From Myxococcales bacterium (GTDB lineage Bacteria > Myxococcota_A > Polyangia > Polyangiales > Polyangiaceae): 34,335 nucleotides of DNA. Both the position numbers and the translations under genes were made by a program. A model generated the notes under the pieces. That model saw only the letters and a list, made by a program, of their open reading frames with translations. It searched no databases and was not told the DNA's origin. Below are positions 5,210-30,342 of this stretch, one piece after another; position 1 is the first letter of the stretch; each line of letters starts with the position of its first letter. The DNA is taken from contig JAAFHV010000079.1 in the NCBI GenBank assembly GCA_013297655.1, positions 1-34,335 of the forward strand, in the 5' to 3' direction.

Positions 5210-6472
5210 CTATTTGCAGCGCGCGGCGCGTTCGAGGAGGCGGTCGCGGAGGCGCACGTTCTCGGTCAGCGCGGCGGCACGCTCGAGCTCGGCGCGCGCT
5301 TCTGGGAGCCGCCCGAGCTTCTCGAGGAGGTCGGCGCGCGCGCTCGGGAGGAGGTGATACCGCGCGAGGGCAGGGTGCTCGCGGAGCGCATCGAGGATCA
5401 CCAGGCCCGCCGCGGGGCCTAGGCTCCGCGAGACGGCGAGGGCGCGGTTCAGCTCCACCACCGGCGACGGCGCGATCGTTCCCAATCGTGTGTAGAGCGC
5501 AGAAATCTTCGCCCAGTCGGTCGCGTCGAACGTGGCGGCGCGCGCGTGGCAGGCCGCGATCGCAGCCTGGATTTGGTACGGACCTCCCTCCGCCGCGAGC
5601 GCCTCCGCCGCGTCGAGCGCACGAAGGCCCGTCTCGATACGTGCATGATCCCAGCGACCTCGATCCTGATCGGCGAGCAAAATCGGCTCTCCGCGCGCGT
5701 CGGTGCGGGCATCGCTGCGCGAGCTTTGGAGGAGCACGAGGGCCCGGAGGCCATGCGCTTCCGGCTCGTTCGGCGCGAGCTCTGCCGCGAGCGCCGCGAG
5801 TCGCAACGCCTCGTCGACCAGCGCGGGGCGAAGCACGTCGTCGCCCGCGGTCGCGGAGTATCCCTCGTTGAAGACGAGGTAGATCACCTCGAGCACCGAG
5901 GCGATGCGCCGCCCGAGCTCGTCGCCGCGTGGAACCTCGAACGTGACCGCGGCCTCCGCGAGTGTCCGCTTCGCGCGAACGATTCGTTGCGCGACGGTGG
6001 GCTCCGTCGTGAGGAACGCGCGCGCGATCTCGTCGGTCGAGAGACCGCCGACGAGGCGGAGCGTGAGCGCCGCGCGCGCCTCCTTCGAGAGCACCGGATG
6101 GCAGGCCGCAAACATGAGCCGTAGAACGTCGTCCGCGACGTCCTCGTCGAGCCCTACCTCGAGCCTCGCTTCGATTTCGTCGAAATCGCACGGAAAGAGG
6201 CTCGATTTCGTATGCGCGTGCGACCGCTCCACCACCCGGCGGTGCCGGATACGATTGAGCGCGCGGTTCTTCGCCGTGGTCATGAGCCATGCCCCTGGCC
6301 GCTCGGGCACGCCCGATAGTGGCCACTCTTCGAGCGCCGCCACGAACGCGTCGTGGGCGAGCTCTTCGGCGAGGCCGAGGTCACGCACGACGCGAGTGAG
6401 GCTCCCGATGAGCTTGGGAGCCTCCTCTTTCCACACGGTCGCGATCGTTTGGCGTACGTCGGCGCGAGACAC
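5210..6472 (-). CDS. ECF42-group RNA polymerase sigma factor with C-terminal TPR-like extension
   Basis: 420 aa. Residues about 1-75 are sigma region 2 (GLAEELAHDAFVAALEEWP, PGAWLMTTAKNRALNRIR). Residues about 125-180 are region 4 with the helix-turn-helix LSTDEIARAFLTTEPTVAQR. Then follows the long helical extension typical of the group (VIYLVFNEGYSA, LNRALAVSRSLGPAAGL, helical repeats to the end); there is no separate anti-sigma gene, and the extension is thought to regulate activity. The GTG at 6472 gives the usual family N-terminus (SRADVRQTIATVW); an ATG at 6502 or GTG at 6505 would add about 10 residues. It starts 83 bases after DGPF protein 1, with which it is probably co-transcribed. 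Group membership rests on the extension plus the DGPF neighbours. Confidence 0.9.
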   Translation of the reverse strand: MSRADVRQTIATVWKEEAPKLIGSLTRVVRDLGLAEELAHDAFVAALEEWPLSGVPERPGAWLMTTAKNRALNRIRHRRVVERSHAHTKSSLFPCDFDEIEARLEVGLDEDVADDVLRLMFAACHPVLSKEARAALTLRLVGGLSTDEIARAFLTTEPTVAQRIVRAKRTLAEAAVTFEVPRGDELGRRIASVLEVIYLVFNEGYSATAGDDVLRPALVDEALRLAALAAELAPNEPEAHGLRALVLLQSSRSDARTDARGEPILLADQDRGRWDHARIETGLRALDAAEALAAEGGPYQIQAAIAACHARAATFDATDWAKISALYTRLGTIAPSPVVELNRALAVSRSLGPAAGLVILDALREHPALARYHLLPSARADLLEKLGRLPEARAELERAAALTENVRLRDRLLERAARCK

Positions 6473-6555: not shown

Positions 6556-6909
6556 TCACTTCGGCGGGGGGCCGCCCGGCTCGAACATCGGCAAGATCTC
6601 GCCTCTGCCGTCGCCCGCGATCGCCATGAACTCCTTCGAGAGCGCGATGGCGGCTTCCATGTTGGCGGCTTCGATCACCGCGAACCCGTCGATGAGCTCT
6701 TTGCTCTCCGCGAAGGGACCGTCGGTGACGGTGATCTTACCGCCCTCGTTTTGGATGCGGACCCCGTGCGACGGGCGCACGAGGCCGCCGGTGAGGACGA
6801 CGCTTCCCGAGTCGAGCATGCGCTTCGTGTATTCGCCGAGCTTCTGCATCGTCTCGGGCGAGGGCGGGGGTGCGGTCGGGTTCGACTCGAAAATCGCCAT
6901 GAATTTCAT
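6556..6909 (-). CDS. DGPF-domain (YCII-related) protein 1
   Basis: 117 aa. Small ferredoxin-like YCII/DGPF family protein: N-terminal strand MKFMAIFE, a helix, then VTDGPFAESKELIDGF with the eponymous DGPF at residues 63-66. The ATG has AAGGAGA at ideal spacing. DGPF proteins are the standard genomic partners of ECF42 sigma factors; their biochemical role is not settled. First gene of the probable DGPF1-sigma operon and preceded by an ECF42-type promoter, implying positive autoregulation of the sigma factor. Confidence 0.9.
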   Translation of the reverse strand: MKFMAIFESNPTAPPPSPETMQKLGEYTKRMLDSGSVVLTGGLVRPSHGVRIQNEGGKITVTDGPFAESKELIDGFAVIEAANMEAAIALSKEFMAIAGDGRGEILPMFEPGGPPPK

Positions 6910-6954
6910 ACGTTCTCCTTGGAGTGGGGGGCCAGTCTAAGTGCCCTTCCCCAA

Positions 6955-6984
6955 GACGACACCCGAGCGTGCGCCGAATCGACA
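6955..6984 (-). promoter_or_regulatory. ECF42-type promoter of DGPF1-sigma operon
   Basis: Minus strand: TGTCGA (6984-6979), 17 bases, TGTCGTC (6961-6955), 45 bases before the ATG. An A-tract on the same strand (A8GAAA, 7004-6993) begins 8 bases upstream of the -35 and looks like an UP element, a contact site for the RNA polymerase alpha subunit. Confidence 0.7.
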
Positions 6985-6992
6985 GCGGGGCC

Positions 6993-7004
6993 TTTCTTTT
7001 TTTT
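6993..7004 (-). promoter_or_regulatory. A-tract, possible UP element
   Basis: A run of 8 A, G, then 3 A on the minus strand directly upstream of the ECF42-type promoter; it stands out in GC-rich DNA. On the plus strand the same T-run has no hairpin in front of it and no plus-strand gene to terminate. Confidence 0.4.
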
Positions 7005-7032
7005 CGAGGCGGCCGTTGTCCTCGCGCACGCC

Positions 7033-7452
7033 TCAAGAAGAGGGGGATTGCGATCGCAGGTCGGCGAACCCGGCGATGGCCTTCTTCACGTCCTCCGGAA
7101 AGTCGTCCATTTCCTGCACCTGGCGAACCTCGATGATCTCGTTGTCGCCGGCGGGGCAGCGCGCTGCCCACTCGATCGCCTCCTCGCGCGAGCGGACTTG
7201 GATCATCCAGTAGCCGCCGACGAGCTCCTTCGCCTCCGCGAAAGGTCCGTCGGCGATCGTGGGCTTGCCGCCGGAGAACGACACGCGCGCGCCCATCGAC
7301 GGCGGGTGGAGGCCGTCGAGGGAGAGCAGCACCCCCGCCTTTTGGAGCTCCTCGTTGTACTTCATCATCTTCTCGACGCCGGCCGCGTCCGGCATCGTGC
7401 CGGGGACGGCGGTCTCGTAGCCCTTGGGGATCATCAGCATCATGAAGCGCAT
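7033..7452 (-). CDS. DGPF-domain (YCII-related) protein 2
   Basis: 139 aa. Same family as the neighbouring DGPF protein: N-terminal MRFMMLMIPKG, then TIADGPFAEAKELVGGYW with DGPF at residues 68-71 and VRSREEAIEWAARCP, typical of the family. The C-terminus has a Ser-rich tail. The start is the ATG with AAAGGA upstream; a frame opening 23 codons earlier would overlap the promoter. Lies 123 bases upstream of DGPF1 on the same strand, with its own ECF42-type promoter, so it is a separate transcription unit that can also read into DGPF1 and the sigma gene. Confidence 0.88.
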   Translation of the reverse strand: MRFMMLMIPKGYETAVPGTMPDAAGVEKMMKYNEELQKAGVLLSLDGLHPPSMGARVSFSGGKPTIADGPFAEAKELVGGYWMIQVRSREEAIEWAARCPAGDNEIIEVRQVQEMDDFPEDVKKAIAGFADLRSQSPSS

Positions 7453-22286: not shown

Positions 22287-23579
22287 TCAGGTGCCGTTGG
22301 CCGCCTTTTTCTCGGTCGCGGCGCGGGCGAGCAGCATCTCGCGCTCCTTCGTGTTCCGCGTCATCGCCGCCGCTTTTACGAGCTCGACGTGCGCTTCGGC
22401 GTGACGCCCGAGCTTCGCGAGGAGGTCCGCGCGCACGCTTTGCACGAGGTGGTAGTCCGCGAGCACGGGCTCGTTCACGAGCGCGTCGACGAGCGCGAGC
22501 CCCGCCTCCGGACCGAACGCCATCCCGAGCGCGACCGCGCGGTTCAGCTCGACCACGGGCGACGCGGTGAGCTCCGCGAGCTTCGTGTAGAGGGCGGCGA
22601 TCTTCGGCCAGTCCGTCGCCGAGGCGACCTCCGCGCGCGCGTGGCACGCCGCGATCTTGGCCTGCACGAGGTACGGTCCGTCGCTGCCCGTCTTCACGAC
22701 GAGGCCCTCCGCGCGCTCCATCGCGGCGAGCCCGCGCGCGATCAGCGCGCCGTCCCACAGCGCGCGGTTCTGATCGAGGAGCAGCACCGGCGCGCCGCCC
22801 GGTCCGATCCGCGCGTGGGTGCGCGAGGCTTGGAGCGCCATCAGCGCGAGGAGACCGAGGATCTCCGGCTCGTCCGGCATGAGCTCGCACAGCACACGAC
22901 CGAGCCGCTGCGCGTCGTCACAAAGCGCGGGCCGAACCCAGTCGTCGCCGGCCGACGCGGCGTACCCTTCGTTGAACACGAGGTAGACGACCTCCAGAAC
23001 CGACGCGAGCCGCGCGTGGAGCTCGGGGCCGCGCGGCACCTCGAACGGCACGCGCTTCTCGGCGAGGGTCCGCTTCGCGCGCACGATCCGCGCGGCGAGG
23101 GTGGGCGCGGGAACGAGGAAGGCCCGCGCGATTTCCTCTGTCGTGAGGCCCCCGAGGAGGCGCAAGGTGAGCGCGACGCGCCCCTCCGTCGGCAAGCACG
23201 GGTGGCACGCGACGAAGATGAGTCGCAACAGATCGTCGTCGATGGGCTCGCTCGTGAGGGACCTCCAAGGGTCGTCCATCGCGGCCTCGATGTCCGGCTC
23301 GGTGTGGCTAAGTCCTTCGGTATCTATACGTATCTCATCGTGTTTTCGCTCGAGTAGCTTCACCCGGCGCAGCTCGTCGAGGGCGCGGCGTTTGGCCGTC
23401 GTCATGAGCCAGGCGCCGGGGTTCTCGGGGATGCCGCCTTCGTGCCATGCCTCGATCGCGATCAGCATCGCGTCCTGCGCGAGCTCCTCCGCGCGGCCCA
23501 CGTCGCGGAGCATGCGCGCGAGCCCCGCCACGAGCTTCGGCGTCTCCAGGCGGAAGATGGTCTCGATGCTCCGTGACAT
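22287..23579 (-). CDS. ECF42-type sigma factor, second copy
   Basis: 430 aa from the ATG at 23579 (MSRSIETIFRLETPKLVAGL); the frame continues upstream through the GFA gene but only as a shadow. Sigma region 2 (GRAEELAQDAMLIAIEAWH, PGAWLMTTAKRRALDELR), region 4 (LTTEEIARAFLVPAPTLAAR), then the long helical C-terminal extension (VVYLVFNEGYAA, VVELNRAVALGMAFGPEAGL). Same architecture as the factor at 5210-6472 and clearly homologous. Instead of DGPF partners it follows a GFA-family gene by 44 bases, and the TGTCGA-N17-YGTCGTC element is absent upstream. Confidence 0.9.
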   Translation of the reverse strand: MSRSIETIFRLETPKLVAGLARMLRDVGRAEELAQDAMLIAIEAWHEGGIPENPGAWLMTTAKRRALDELRRVKLLERKHDEIRIDTEGLSHTEPDIEAAMDDPWRSLTSEPIDDDLLRLIFVACHPCLPTEGRVALTLRLLGGLTTEEIARAFLVPAPTLAARIVRAKRTLAEKRVPFEVPRGPELHARLASVLEVVYLVFNEGYAASAGDDWVRPALCDDAQRLGRVLCELMPDEPEILGLLALMALQASRTHARIGPGGAPVLLLDQNRALWDGALIARGLAAMERAEGLVVKTGSDGPYLVQAKIAACHARAEVASATDWPKIAALYTKLAELTASPVVELNRAVALGMAFGPEAGLALVDALVNEPVLADYHLVQSVRADLLAKLGRHAEAHVELVKAAAMTRNTKEREMLLARAATEKKAANGT

Positions 23580-25180: not shown

Positions 25181-25897
25181 ATGAGACGCGGGCACACGAG
25201 GAGAGGAATCGCGCGGCTCGTCGGGCTGCTCGTGGTTTCTCTCTCGCTCGTGATCGCGCTCGCGCTTCCGCGGGACGCGCACGCCGCCTCCCCCGATCGC
25301 GGCACGGGCATGGAAGTACGGCTCCAAGCGGCCTTCGCCGCCACCCGCGCGATGCCCGATTTGCAGCTCTCGGCGCCCGAGGAGGTTCTGCTCCCGTCAC
25401 GTGAGGCGGTCGCGGGCACGTTGCCGACGGTGGGAGGTTTTCGTTCGTTCGGCGCGTCGGCCGACATGAACCTCGTGCTGCGCCCGCGCTTCACGATCCC
25501 CATCTTCGGTCTCGGCCTCTACTTGCCGGTCGGCGATCACGCTCCGATTCGAAGCGCGGTCGACGGCTCGATCGCGACGGTGCAGCCGTGGAGGCTCATC
25601 GGCATCGATTTTCTCGGCCCCGGCTTCGGCGTGAGGACGGTCGAGCGCCGGTACTTTTTCGAGGCCTCGGTGCGCTTCTCCATCCTCGTGCTCACCGGTA
25701 CGTCGCAAATCGCGGCCGGGCGCGAGGCGATCGACGTGCAAGTGCACGGCATCGCGCCCGGCGCCCGCGCGGAGATGTCGGCCTGCCGCCGTCTCGATCC
25801 GGAGTCGCGCGTGTGCTTGACCGTCTCGCCTCGTCTCTTCGAGGTGCGCCCGCTCTCGGGCATGACCGTGGGCCTGACTTGGGTGTGGGGTAATTAA
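25181..25897 (+). CDS. Secreted protein of unknown function, first gene of envelope cluster
   Basis: 238 aa. Sec signal peptide (Arg-rich start, LVGLLVVSLSLVIALALP, cleavage after AHA near residue 35). The mature protein is rich in beta strands with aromatic ends (LVLRPRFTIPIFGLGLYLPV; VERRYFFEASVRFSI) and closes with GLTWVWGN, which could suit a small outer-membrane beta-barrel or a periplasmic beta protein. I do not recognise a family. Its TAA is followed directly by the ATG of the next gene, so they form one operon. Confidence 0.7.
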   Translation: MRRGHTRRGIARLVGLLVVSLSLVIALALPRDAHAASPDRGTGMEVRLQAAFAATRAMPDLQLSAPEEVLLPSREAVAGTLPTVGGFRSFGASADMNLVLRPRFTIPIFGLGLYLPVGDHAPIRSAVDGSIATVQPWRLIGIDFLGPGFGVRTVERRYFFEASVRFSILVLTGTSQIAAGREAIDVQVHGIAPGARAEMSACRRLDPESRVCLTVSPRLFEVRPLSGMTVGLTWVWGN

Positions 25898-26995
25898 ATG
25901 CAAAATGCACGCACATGGTCGGCGCGCTGTGCTCTCGGTGCGATCGCTTCGGCGCTCGCGCTGGTGCTCGTCGCATGCAAAGGCGAAGGCGGCGAGCCGA
26001 TCGACGCGGTCGGCCTCGCACAAGAGACGCCGTTACCGAAGCGCAAGGGCACCGTGCTCGTCGATGGCTGCGCGATCGATCCGTTCCAGGACGCCACCCT
26101 GAGCGCGCCGGGGACGCGGAAAATCGTCGACGAGGTGCTCCTCCACTGCCTCGTGCCGCGCGACAACGGCGCGCTCGGGCCGGCCGATTCGTCGGCGCGC
26201 GGGGCGCTTCGGCGCACGATCGAGGAGCTCCACCTCAAAGGCTACAAGGTGTCGCTCGGGGTCGCCTTCACCGACGAGACCGGCGCGCGCTACGACCCCT
26301 CACGCACCGCGCAGCTCGTCGGAGAGCCTACGTTTCGCGCCACCTTCGCAGAGTCGCTCGTCGCCGTGGCCAATACAGCCGACGCGGTCGATCTCGATCT
26401 GCTCGGCGTTCCGCAAGGCTCGCGCGTGAACGTGACCGCGCTGGTCCGCGAGGTCTCGCCCAAGCTCCGCGACGCGAAAAAGACGCTCGGGATCTTCATC
26501 CCGCCGTCGGTCGCGACGCCGAGCGATCTGCCCGATGGCGAAGCGTTCGACCGTGCGTCTCTCGCCCCGCTCGTCGATCGCTTCCGCGTGATGACGCTCG
26601 ACTACTCGGAGACGCCGGGGCCGACGACGGATCCGGGCTGGGCAACCGACGCGGTTCGCCTCGCGCAGAACGCGAAGCGCGAGACGTACGTGTCGTTGCC
26701 TCTCTACGGCGTGGACTTCGGTCCGCGAGGTCTCCGTGGGGTGAGCGTCGTCGAGGCGCGAGGTCTCGCCGCCACCTACGGCGCGACCCTGTCGCGTGGG
26801 GCGACCGGATCGCAGTTCTTCTCCTACGTCGCTCTCGGTGAGCCACACGAGGTCTGGTTCGACGACACGGCTTCGACGGCGCAAGCCCTCGGCGCCTTCG
26901 CCACGTCGCTCCCGCGCGACGTCGGGGTCCTTTATTATGGCTTCGGGGCCGAGGACCCGAGCCTCTTCTCGTCGATCGCCGAGCGAACCGAATGA
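25898..26995 (+). CDS. GH18-like (YaaH-type) lipoprotein lacking the catalytic Glu
   Basis: 365 aa. Lipoprotein signal with ALVLVACKG (Cys near 27). The rest resembles the TIM-barrel GH18 fold of spore-germination-type glycosidases: DAVDLDLLGVP sits where the DxxDxDxE motif belongs (Asp162, Asp165, Asp167), followed by a YaaH-like VTALVREVSPKL helix, MTLDYS near 232 in place of MTYD, and VWFDD (Trp320) near the end. The catalytic Glu is Leu169, so hydrolysis is unlikely and sugar binding more likely. The next gene starts inside its stop (ATGA). Fold assignment is by motif order only. Confidence 0.72.
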   Translation: MQNARTWSARCALGAIASALALVLVACKGEGGEPIDAVGLAQETPLPKRKGTVLVDGCAIDPFQDATLSAPGTRKIVDEVLLHCLVPRDNGALGPADSSARGALRRTIEELHLKGYKVSLGVAFTDETGARYDPSRTAQLVGEPTFRATFAESLVAVANTADAVDLDLLGVPQGSRVNVTALVREVSPKLRDAKKTLGIFIPPSVATPSDLPDGEAFDRASLAPLVDRFRVMTLDYSETPGPTTDPGWATDAVRLAQNAKRETYVSLPLYGVDFGPRGLRGVSVVEARGLAATYGATLSRGATGSQFFSYVALGEPHEVWFDDTASTAQALGAFATSLPRDVGVLYYGFGAEDPSLFSSIAERTE

Positions 26996-28263
26996 GCGCG
27001 ACGAGCCCACACGTGCGCGCTCTCGCGGTCGCCGATCCGCTCGCGCTGCCGGAGGTGTTCCAGCGCCTCCGCCACGAGCACTTCGTGTGGGATGCCCACG
27101 TCGCCGGCAAGCGTCGCGTCGATTTGCACCCGCTCGTGCTCTCCGCCGAAGCCCACGCCGACGCCGTCGCCGCGGCGCTCTCTGCCTCGCGTGTCGTCGC
27201 CCACGTCGCCGAGCGTGCCCTCGTCGATCGGGCCGAGGCGCAACACTACCGCCTCTCGCCCGCCGTCACCCGCCTCGTCGACGCGTCGCACGCGGGAGGC
27301 GATCGCTCGTCGCTCGAGCGGGTCGATCTCCTTCTCCGCGAGGACGGTCGCTTCGTCGCGTGCGAGCTGAACGCCGACTGCCCCGGCGGCTTCAACGAGG
27401 CGGTCGGCCTCCCCGATTTGCTGAAGTATGCAGGATACAAGGGAGCGGCCGACGTCACGACGGTCGTAGACGCGCTCGCCGAGCGCCTCGTCGCCGCGTC
27501 GGGGGGCAAGGGCTCGCCGCGCGGCATCGTCGCGCTCGTGTTCGCGACCGCGTACGCCGAAGATCTCCAGATCTGCGCCCTGGTGGAGCGGGCCGTGGTG
27601 CGGCGCGGTGGGGTCGCGGTGCGTACGCCGCCGACCGCGCTCGTGATCGACGGCGGTCGTGTGCACCTCCGTGGGCGCGCGGTGGCCGTGCTTTACCGAT
27701 TTTTTCCGACCGAGCACTTCGCGGATCTGCCCGTATCTACTGGGCTTCCGGAGGTGCTCGCCTCGGGCGCGCTCACGAACGTGTCGTCGTTCGCGGTGAT
27801 GTACGCGCAGTCGAAGGTGGCCTTCGCGCGTGTCCACGCGGCGATTCATTCGATGCCCCCCGCCCTCGCGGCGGAGGCCCGCGAGCGCATCCCGGAGACG
27901 TTCTCCCCGCTCGCGGTGGCAGACCTCGCGGAGGAACGAGAAGGCTGGGTCCTCAAGCGCGCGCTCGGCCGCGTCGGCGACGAGGTCTTCGTCGGCACGT
28001 TGGAGACGCAAGAGGAATGGGGGCGCCTCGTCGTTGGCGTGAGAGCCGCGTGCAACGGCGGCGAGCCTTGGATCGCGCAGCGCTTCGTGCGGCAGCGGAC
28101 GGTGCCCACACCCTGGGGCCCGCGGTACCTCACCCTCGGGGCCTACGTGCTCGACGGCCGCTTCGTCGGGTACTTCGCGCGCTTCACGTTGGTGAGCCAC
28201 ACGTCCCACGACGCGCTCGTGCTCCCCGTCGTCGTCGAAGGCGCGCGAGAGGAGGCCGCATGA
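26992..28263 (+). CDS. Circularly permuted ATP-grasp protein, glutathionylspermidine-synthase-like
   Basis: 423 aa, no signal peptide, so cytoplasmic. CELNADCPGGFNEAVGLPDL near residue 127 matches the ENxDxPGG-type stretch of glutathionylspermidine-synthase and permuted ATP-grasp families; the C-terminal part holds VLKRALGRVGDEVFVG, PWIAQRFVRQR and GAYVLDGRFVGYFAR, the ATP/Mg-binding half. The expected reaction is ATP-dependent amide or peptide bond formation through an acyl-phosphate. It is linked by ATGA overlaps to lipoprotein genes on both sides, which is odd for a spermidine enzyme. The substrate may be an envelope component. Confidence 0.8.
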   Translation: MSATSPHVRALAVADPLALPEVFQRLRHEHFVWDAHVAGKRRVDLHPLVLSAEAHADAVAAALSASRVVAHVAERALVDRAEAQHYRLSPAVTRLVDASHAGGDRSSLERVDLLLREDGRFVACELNADCPGGFNEAVGLPDLLKYAGYKGAADVTTVVDALAERLVAASGGKGSPRGIVALVFATAYAEDLQICALVERAVVRRGGVAVRTPPTALVIDGGRVHLRGRAVAVLYRFFPTEHFADLPVSTGLPEVLASGALTNVSSFAVMYAQSKVAFARVHAAIHSMPPALAAEARERIPETFSPLAVADLAEEREGWVLKRALGRVGDEVFVGTLETQEEWGRLVVGVRAACNGGEPWIAQRFVRQRTVPTPWGPRYLTLGAYVLDGRFVGYFARFTLVSHTSHDALVLPVVVEGAREEAA

Positions 28264-29282
28264 GGCGCCCGTTCGGTAGCCGCATCGGGCTCGTCTCGTT
28301 CGTCACGCTCGCGACGGCCTGCTCGCTTCGTCCGTTCACGCCGTCCGTCTCGGTCGCGTTCTCGTCGCAAGACGTCCCCTTCGCGCGCTCGATGAGCGTC
28401 CCGAGCGCAAAGGAGGTCTCCGCCCGTTGGGAGCTGGCGCCGAACGATCCCTGGTCGCGCTACGAGAAGGTCACTCTCGTGTCGTCGCTCGACGCGATGG
28501 GGGGCCACGCCGAGCTCCCGGACGTGAAGGAGCTCGACGTGCTGTACGAGGCCACCCGCGCCGCGCGAAGGCTCGGCGAGGTGGGGCTCCCCGCCGGTAC
28601 GCTGTGGATCTCGGACATGCGCGGGGCTGCCTCCGTCGCGTTCGGGGCGGCGCTCCCTCGTTACGCGAAGGAGCCCATTTCGCCGGTGCTCACGTTCAAC
28701 AATTGGCCCTCCGAGTCGGGTCTCGTGCCGGCGGACGAGACGCTCGCCGCGCTCGTGCTGATGGCCCCTCCGCGACCTCCGAAGGACACCCCGAACGGGC
28801 ATCCGGTGTTCCTCCTCGACTCGTGGCGGCTCGCCTTTCGAGAGGACGATCCTGGCGGCGCGTACGACAACCGCTACATGCTCCAGCCCCACGAGCTCCC
28901 CTCCGCGGAAGAGCTCCGCGCGCGTGGCATCTCGCGGGTCGTCTACCTCGTGGAGAGCTTCGACGACACCGAGGGCGAAGAGGACGACCTTCACCCCGTG
29001 CTCCGCGCGTGGCAAGACGCCGGCATCTCGACCCACTTCGTCGACCTCGAGTGGCTCAGCGAGCTCACCCTCGACGTCGACTGGGCGCGCACCCTCGCAC
29101 CCACGAGTCACTACATCGAGCGCCGCACGGTTTTGCAAGACGATCCGCGGTTTTACGCGCGAGCTCGCGGCGGCTTCGGGTTCGCTTACGGGCACCCGAT
29201 TTTTTTCCCGGGTGGCTTCTCGCGCAGCCGCGGAGGCTACGGTGGATACGGTGGCGGCGGAGGAGGCTTCGGAGGCGGGTGA
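28260..29282 (+). CDS. Lipoprotein of unknown function with Gly-rich tail
   Basis: 340 aa. Lipoprotein signal ending TLATACSLR (Cys near 21). The body has distinctive stretches (LWISDMRGAASVAFG; FNNWPSESGLVPADE; FLLDSWRLAF; GISRVVYLVESFDD; STHFVDLEWLSELTLDV) but no family I can name; alternating strands and helices suggest a Rossmann-like fold. The last 16 residues are a GGYGGYGG-type Gly-rich tail like that of surface adhesive or disordered segments. Starts inside the stop codon of the ATP-grasp gene. Faces the periplasm or surface. Confidence 0.72.
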   Translation: MRRPFGSRIGLVSFVTLATACSLRPFTPSVSVAFSSQDVPFARSMSVPSAKEVSARWELAPNDPWSRYEKVTLVSSLDAMGGHAELPDVKELDVLYEATRAARRLGEVGLPAGTLWISDMRGAASVAFGAALPRYAKEPISPVLTFNNWPSESGLVPADETLAALVLMAPPRPPKDTPNGHPVFLLDSWRLAFREDDPGGAYDNRYMLQPHELPSAEELRARGISRVVYLVESFDDTEGEEDDLHPVLRAWQDAGISTHFVDLEWLSELTLDVDWARTLAPTSHYIERRTVLQDDPRFYARARGGFGFAYGHPIFFPGGFSRSRGGYGGYGGGGGGFGGG

Positions 29283-29307: not shown

Positions 29308-30342
29308 GTGAGCACCGCTCTCGTTCGCTCCGGCGGCGCGAGGCCTCGTCGCGCCACCGCTTCGCGCCTCGCGCGCGTCGTGATCGCGAGCTTCGTGCTC
29401 GCAGGTCTTTCGCTCGTCGCGGACAGCGCGCGCGCCGAGGAAGCGCCGTGCAAAGGCTGTGTGCTCGTGCCTCCACGCGCCGACGCGGGCCCGGTGCCGC
29501 TGCTCGTCACGCTCCACGGCGACATCGATCACGCCGACACGACCGCCGCTCCGTGGCGCGCCGCCATCGCCGAGCGCGGGTGGGGGCTCCTGTCGATCGA
29601 GTGTCCCGTCGCGGAGGGTTGCGACAAGGGCAGCTTCTGGCGCTGGAACGGTCCCGTCGCGTGGATCCTGGCGCAGGTAAAGAAGGTGACCGACGCGCAC
29701 CCGATCGATCGCGATCGGCTCTACGTCTCGGGTTGGTCCGGCGGCGCGTCGTACATCGGCTGGCACGCGCACGAGATCTCCGCCGCGTTCGCCGCGATCG
29801 TGATCCACGGCGGAGGCGTGAAGCCGCGACTCTCCACCTGTGCGACCCACACGCCGCCCGTGTATTTCCTCGTCGGGAGCGCCAACCCGCTCCACGATCG
29901 GGTCAAAGATCTCCACGCGTTCTTCGAGGGTTGCCACCACGAGGTCGTGTGGGATCTCTTGCCGCGCAAAGGCCACGCGGAGGAGCTCGCGGCCCTCGAT
30001 CGCCGCCGCGCCGACACGATCCTCGCGCAGCTCGAGACCTGGACACGGAAGCCCGCGTCGACGGCAGCGAGCGCGACGAGCGCGCCATCAACGCCGGCCG
30101 TTCCCGAGCCCCCGAGCGCTCCGCCGGCCTCGTCGTCTACAGCGAGCCCATCGTCGAGCGCCGCGCCACCGCTCGCGCCGTCCCCGAGCCCGAAGAGCGC
30201 GCGCGGCTGCTCGACGTCACCGCGTAACGTCCCACCCGAGCCGGACCTTATCGGGGCGGGGCTCGTGCTCGTGTGCATCGCGGCGGCGCGCGCTCGACGA
30301 ACGAGACACGCGCCGAACAGGAGCGCCGCGAAGCTTCAGTAG
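29308..30342 (+). CDS. Secreted alpha/beta-hydrolase (esterase) with MYXO-CTERM-like tail
   Basis: 344 aa from a GTG. Signal peptide with FVLAGLSLVADSARA; the hydrolase core has LLVTLHGD (oxyanion region), SGWSGGAS with nucleophile Ser144, a candidate acid in LHDRV, and RKGHAEEL with His223, like PHB-depolymerase and feruloyl-esterase relatives. After a Ser/Pro/Ala linker come GCSTSP, a hydrophobic stretch (LIGAGLVLVCIAAARA) and Arg residues, the layout of MYXO-CTERM surface-sorting tails with their key Cys. Starts 25 bases after the lipoprotein gene and overlaps the proS end by 7 bases. Confidence 0.82.
   Translation: MSTALVRSGGARPRRATASRLARVVIASFVLAGLSLVADSARAEEAPCKGCVLVPPRADAGPVPLLVTLHGDIDHADTTAAPWRAAIAERGWGLLSIECPVAEGCDKGSFWRWNGPVAWILAQVKKVTDAHPIDRDRLYVSGWSGGASYIGWHAHEISAAFAAIVIHGGGVKPRLSTCATHTPPVYFLVGSANPLHDRVKDLHAFFEGCHHEVVWDLLPRKGHAEELAALDRRRADTILAQLETWTRKPASTAASATSAPSTPAVPEPPSAPPASSSTASPSSSAAPPLAPSPSPKSARGCSTSPRNVPPEPDLIGAGLVLVCIAAARARRTRHAPNRSAAKLQ

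Follow-up and report, generated by a model that had tools for sequence, protein, structure and literature searches.

A GH18-fold lipoprotein with a degenerate active site, encoded in an operon with a GSP_synth-type ligase and a glycine-tailed lipoprotein in a Myxococcales bacterium

What does a GH18-like lipoprotein do when leucine stands in place of its catalytic glutamate? The question is raised by a gene in the genome of a Myxococcales bacterium (GenBank assembly GCA_013297655.1, contig JAAFHV010000079.1). The window, the whole stretch of DNA that was analyzed, is 34,335 nucleotides long. The gene and its neighbors are listed here with the motifs discussed below.

25181 to 25897, plus strand: UP1, a secreted beta-rich protein, possibly, judging by sequence alone, an outer-membrane beta-barrel; the start is uncertain (25181 or 25232).
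25898 to 26995, plus strand: GH18-fold lipoprotein (P0001), with lipobox Cys27 and Leu169 at the acid/base site.
26381 to 26404, plus strand: codons 162 to 169, DAVDLDLL, a degenerate DxxDxDxE motif.
26501 to 26527, plus strand: codons 202 to 210, PPSVATPSD, the loop after strand 5.
26591 to 26602, plus strand: codons 232 to 235, MTLD, the counterpart of MxYD, with Leu in place of Tyr.
26992 to 28263, plus strand: GSP_synth-type (PF03738) ATP-grasp ligase, a homologue of Escherichia coli YgiC/YjfC, overlapping the GH18-like gene by 4 nt.
28260 to 29282, plus strand: DN1, a lipoprotein without a Pfam family, with an RGGFG motif and a Gly-rich tail ending in GGG, overlapping the ligase gene by 4 nt.

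The GH18-like gene encodes 365 amino acids, with an ATG start and a stop codon present. Its lipobox is LVAC, of which the last residue is Cys27. The protein matched PF00704 (GH18) with an E value of 8.7e-7 and 29.3 bits, just under the curated cutoff of 29.6. Matches to PF00704 were also retrieved for 13 of 15 orthologues (E up to 0.01). PDB sequence matches include 5jh8 (E 1.2e-8) and YdhD (3cz8), and a profile of 15 orthologues matched 5jh8 at 1.1e-23 and SleL (4s3j) at 8.2e-23. On these sequence matches, the kinship to GH18 is beyond chance. The initial annotation had called a GH18-like lipoprotein here, and the reading frame, the lipobox, and the Pfam, PDB, and profile matches agree with it. 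There was no NCBIfam match and, in Pfam up to E 1, no LysM. P0001 appears to be the only GH18-like protein of its genome, where a search with it retrieved a single match. A PF00704 search of the same genome gave no match at E 0.001.

An AlphaFold2 model was built on the orthologue alignment. It had a pLDDT of 88.3 and a pTM of 0.85. Foldseek placed SleL first, and VIA-align against SleL (4s3k) gave a Z of 32.2 and an rmsd of 3.3 over 310 residues. The predicted fold is a GH18-type (beta/alpha)8 barrel, and its nearest solved structures are SleL/YaaH. A predicted TIM barrel had been named beforehand as a test, and it was obtained; the origin from a YaaH-like GH18 protein that had been claimed is supported by the fold and the profile kinship.

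The residue at position +2 after the lipobox Cys is Lys in the window protein and Gly, Ala, Ser, or Trp in orthologues. Lys at +2 is given as an inner-membrane signal for lipoproteins of Myxococcus xanthus in an excerpt of PMC3222651. As Lys occurs here and is lacking from the orthologues, an inner-membrane location of the protein is at most tentative.

Residue 169 is Leu, and it aligns with the Glu of active relatives (5jh8 and SleL), as had been claimed. It was put on the barrel by sequence alignment and DSSP. It lies just after strand 4 (residues 163 to 167), where active relatives carry the acid Glu. The firm reading frame and the alignment rule out chance or a coordinate error as its source. 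The window protein combines a GH18 barrel with a replaced catalytic Glu, a combination that it shares with chi-lectin-like pseudo-GH18 proteins.

A search of 144 related genomes with the GH18-like protein gave matches in 19 genomes; when 377 genomes of the phylum were searched with a profile, 40 had matches with an E value no higher than 1e-10. The alignment contained 33 GH18-like proteins from fetched stretches; an N-terminal fragment in L046 was not included. The tree contained 32, as the fragment L045, in which the motif is absent, was left out. It placed 19 proteins in one clade (support 100/99) and 13 outside. The near-identical pairs L031/L033 and L082/L083 were counted separately among the 19.

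Within the clade, residue 169 is Pro in 7 proteins, Glu in 5, Gln in 4, Leu in 2, and His in 1. Residue 234, the Tyr of MxYD, is Leu in 16 and Val in 3, so this Tyr is lost in 19/19. Outside the clade, Glu and Tyr are both kept in 13/13. The residue 169 comparison had been named beforehand as a test, and it gave a divided answer. The acid Glu is indeed lost in 14 of the 19, but it is present in 5, and Leu, found in only 2, is rejected as the conserved state of the family at this site. The initial annotation had also described three Asp as kept, which holds for the window protein and fails for the clade (Asp167 in 7/19, Asp165 in 9/19).

All five Glu169 members lack the MxYD Tyr, and three of them have Asn at 167; the decay is therefore a property of the whole clade and not of Leu169. 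Some members might keep weak activity, given Glu169 in 5/19 and the presence of Asp167 as well in two of these (L030 and L034). Two further observations were made among the GH18-like proteins. L040, L041, L044, and L047 form a separate GH18-like group that has lost the first motif Asp and kept Glu and Tyr. One clade member (L123:6773-7891, G436:C173) reads DGLQVILP and has no ligase or DN1 in its 14-kb stretch; its genome has a linked copy too.

The loops on the face of the barrel are conserved unevenly. The old catalytic loop, which follows strand 4, is the least conserved, with a mean entropy of 2.31 bits versus 1.75 over all columns. The loops after strands 5, 6, 7, and 8 are the most conserved, at 0.92, 1.13, 0.89, and 0.72 bits. 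The loop PPSVATPSD after strand 5 is near-invariant in the clade and absent from the 13 outside relatives. Release of the catalytic loop while other loops of the same face are held points to a changed binding site and not to a dying gene. The clade is most likely a GH18 lineage converted to binding, judging from these columns.

Two other readings bear on this pattern. The protein could simply be a degenerate GH18 copy, weakly constrained and without particular ties to its neighbors. The motif does drift freely over the clade, as expected of such a copy, but 27 columns are clade-invariant and the gene order is kept across families f1, f8, and f14 of the class, which makes this reading very improbable. 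Alternatively, the protein may still be an enzyme that uses another acid, such as Asp210, Asp235, Asp323, or Glu352. These four are among the invariant columns and lie on strongly conserved barrel-face loops. The MxYD Tyr and the Asp at position 167 support GH18 catalysis, however, and the former is lost throughout while the latter is lost in 12/19. Asp235, Asp323, and partly Glu352 are also common to ordinary YaaH-like relatives, so they are not replacements, and only Asp210 is new. We regard a surviving enzyme as improbable, though less so than a degenerate copy. Conversion to binding remains our preferred reading, and the neighboring genes suggest what it may serve.

In the window, UP1, the GH18-like gene, the ligase gene, and DN1 are spaced by 0, -4, and -4 nt; across 13 loci, a spacing of -4 occurs most often. 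Gene calls in relatives came from a custom codon-usage caller. The fetched stretches of the 19 clade members contained the ligase in 17, DN1 in 16, and UP1 in 13. Absent neighbors are explained by a gene off the contig (L028), the unlinked second copy (L123), a split operon (L031 with L085), and contig edges; UP1 absences also include the class-level family f14. The split operon (G011, L031:8086-8772 and L085:8568-9200) is broken within the ligase gene over two contigs, by an assembly fault or a rearrangement. Neither ligase nor DN1 was found in the stretches of outside relatives (0/13). UP1 had no Pfam match in 10/10 members.

Two genomes, G003 and G029, have the ligase and DN1 without a GH18-like gene in the stretch, so that the GH18-like gene is not essential to the ligase-DN1 pair. 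In G003, an OmpA-domain lipoprotein-like gene (L079:6698-7633) lies directly before the ligase, in the slot of the GH18-like gene; this was seen in that single genome. OmpA domains bind peptidoglycan.

A promoter scan of the operon found no sigma-70-type site. Terminator-like sites numbered five, versus a mean of 2.7 in shuffles, a difference that carries little information. Other genes of the window were also noted. DN1 is followed by an esterase gene (29380-30342) whose product is weakly similar to PHB depolymerases; in relatives, tblastn did not find it next to the operon. An ECF-type sigma-like gene lies at 22287-23579 (Pfam Sigma70_r2, Sigma70_r4_2, and DUF6596), and a second, judged by its similar N terminus only, lies at 5210-6472. 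Small proteins with a DGPF motif are encoded at 6556-7452.

The window ligase matched PF03738 (GSP_synth) with 41.3 bits, above the cutoff of 29.3, and 13/13 ligase members matched this family. RefSeq names the E. coli homologues YgiC and YjfC peptide--spermidine ligases; Pederick 2023 is reportedly the primary paper on the E. coli peptide-spermidine ligase. Aligned to YgiC, the window ligase keeps the NAD and VxK...G segments, which we take to be those for metal and ATP binding. A profile search for a solved relative gave none at E 0.01, and no plasmid copy of the ligase was found. The genome has no AdoMet decarboxylase (AdoMet_dc) or nspC match. Spermidine is therefore doubtful as the amine used, despite two Spermine_synth matches in the same genome.

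DN1 had no Pfam match in 13/13 members. Its assignment to DUF1190 was rejected, as there was no DUF1190 match and PF06693 was not found in the genome. The DN1 model had a pLDDT of 72.3, with the tail predicted at very low confidence. With this model, Foldseek returned no match up to E 0.001, and VIA-align reached a Z of 5.0 at most.

The tail of DN1 is conserved. All 13 aligned orthologues end in Gly-Gly, and ahead of the Gly-rich tail GFG is invariant (GGFG in 12/13). Six more complete orthologues (L079, L080, L082, L083, L084, and L085) also end in Gly-Gly, for 19/20. The sole exception, L036, ends ahead of the tail, at 32 nt from the edge of its contig. The copy in L081, which is broken or truncated, was excluded from the count. 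As background, 5 of 419 other called genes in the same stretches end in Gly-Gly, and none of these 5 has GG[FYW]G in its last 60 residues. With distant DN1-like genes included, the Gly-Gly ending is found in 22 of 26 called DN1-type genes. Among 377 genomes, DN1 is present in 46, the ligase family in 43, and both in 38, a co-occurrence whose Fisher value ignores kinship.

The distant DN1-like genes lie near a ligase in 6 of 7 stretches (L086 to L091); the seventh, L092, is a short contig and has none. In four genomes of the distant family f28 (L168:4394-5299, L169:4794-5633, L170:5547-6476, and L173:1923-2843), the DN1-like protein adjoining the ligase ends in MGGFG...GGGGG. The genome of the window also contains a second system (L086:3849-8951, G000:C57). 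It encodes a DUF350 membrane protein, a GSP_synth ligase, a DN1-like protein, and a 185-amino-acid protein without a Pfam family. This DN1-like protein is long and has a Gly/Ser tail ending in SGG.

Similar ends occur in E. coli, where YgiB ends in RGGFG...SMGG and YjfM ends in RGGYG...HWGG. The common Gly-Gly end on unrelated proteins (DN1, YgiB, and YjfM) suggests that the ligase acts on a terminal glycine. We propose to recognize such proteins as ligase neighbors with GG[FY]G and a C-terminal Gly-Gly; DN1 has this combination.

In the window operon, as in E. coli ygiBC and yjfIJKLMC, the GSP_synth-type ligase has as its neighbor a lipoprotein-like protein that contains RGG[FY]G and ends in Gly-Gly. 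The window operon differs in that this neighbor, DN1, is not a DUF1190 protein, in that UP1 and the GH18-like protein are present, and in that DUF350 is missing. The second system of the same genome does have DUF350, as in E. coli yjfL-yjfM-yjfC. PMC11237479 describes operons in which GSP_synth-type ligases occur together with DUF350, DUF1190, and PspA proteins, and it gives the DUF1190 protein as a metal-chelating lipoprotein.

The GH18-like protein shares its barrel and sequence profile with the cortex-lytic enzymes SleL/YaaH/YdhD (4s3j, 4s3k, and 3cz8) and with 5jh8. The GPxxxxxW, PLYG, and DDxxS landmarks are kept whole or in part. Unlike these enzymes, it lacks the acid Glu and the MxYD Tyr, shows no LysM in Pfam up to E 1, and is a lipoprotein encoded in a ligase operon. 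It shares a GH18 fold with a replaced catalytic Glu with the chi-lectins (CHI3L1/YKL-40, Ym1, and IDGF). In an extract of PMC1945033, the replacement is Leu or Ile in CHI3L1, CHI3L2, and OVGP1 and Gln in the IDGFs, Ym1, and Ym2. Whereas chi-lectins are secreted animal proteins, the present clade consists of bacterial lipoproteins, in which Pro, Gln, His, Leu, or Glu occupies this position and the clade-specific PPS...PSD loop is found. In the open-licence literature that we searched, we found no description of a pseudo-GH18 partner in ligase operons, of a pseudo-GH18 bacterial lipoprotein, or of a Gly-Gly tail common to ligase-adjacent proteins.

The ligase and Gly-tailed lipoprotein operon was not seen in the initial annotation, and it changes the likely purpose of the scaffold. 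Carbohydrate binding or scaffolding, as first suggested for the GH18-like protein, is plausible. Most likely, this protein provides the binding or anchoring function of an envelope system whose ligase would cap a Gly-tailed lipoprotein. That it works by binding, without hydrolysis, in an envelope system with the ligase and DN1 is in our judgment about an even call. The barrel, the clade-wide loss of the MxYD Tyr, the loss of Glu in most members, the conservation of the other loops, and the conserved operon were computed directly.

The system may work as follows. The cytoplasmic ligase would join an amine to the C-terminal glycine of DN1 before export. By analogy with YgiC/YjfC, this amine would be a polyamine. 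The GH18-like protein and DN1 would both be exported to the envelope. There, the remodeled GH18 cleft may hold an envelope glycan, either peptidoglycan or another GlcNAc polymer, and the GH18-like protein would thereby anchor or position the modified DN1. UP1 is perhaps an outer-membrane partner.

A glycan ligand is favored because the ancestral GH18 cleft binds GlcNAc polymers and because the OmpA-domain lipoprotein of G003 takes the same slot in that one genome. A protein ligand, the DN1 tail in particular, comes not far behind. The cleft may bind the Gly-rich, possibly amine-capped tail, so that the GH18-like protein would serve as its reader or chaperone. The tight linkage of the two genes, the restriction of the PPS...PSD loop to the clade, and the low model confidence of the DN1 tail, as expected for a disordered tail, are consistent with this. 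Against it, the ancestral cleft binds sugars, and in other genomes the DN1-ligase pair lies in stretches that have no GH18-like gene. We consider a protein ligand unlikely, yet clearly more probable than a surviving enzyme.

Beyond the window, GSP_synth-type ligases may cap the C-terminal Gly of dedicated Gly-tailed lipoproteins from Myxococcota to E. coli YgiB/YjfM, with the converted GH18 barrel serving in Polyangia-type bacteria as a reader or glycan anchor. We offer this wider proposal tentatively and rate it a shade above the protein-ligand reading.

The best-known pseudo-GH18 proteins are those of animals. In bacteria, a clade with Glu, Gln, His, Leu, and Pro states and newly fixed loops would be a clean case of an enzyme turned into a binding protein. 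The context carries more weight. Judging from it, GSP_synth-type peptide-amine ligases may have a neighboring protein's Gly-Gly tail as their natural substrate, a prediction that is directly testable on the C termini of E. coli K-12 YgiB and YjfM. The conserved cluster looks like an uncharacterized protein-tagging system of the cell envelope.
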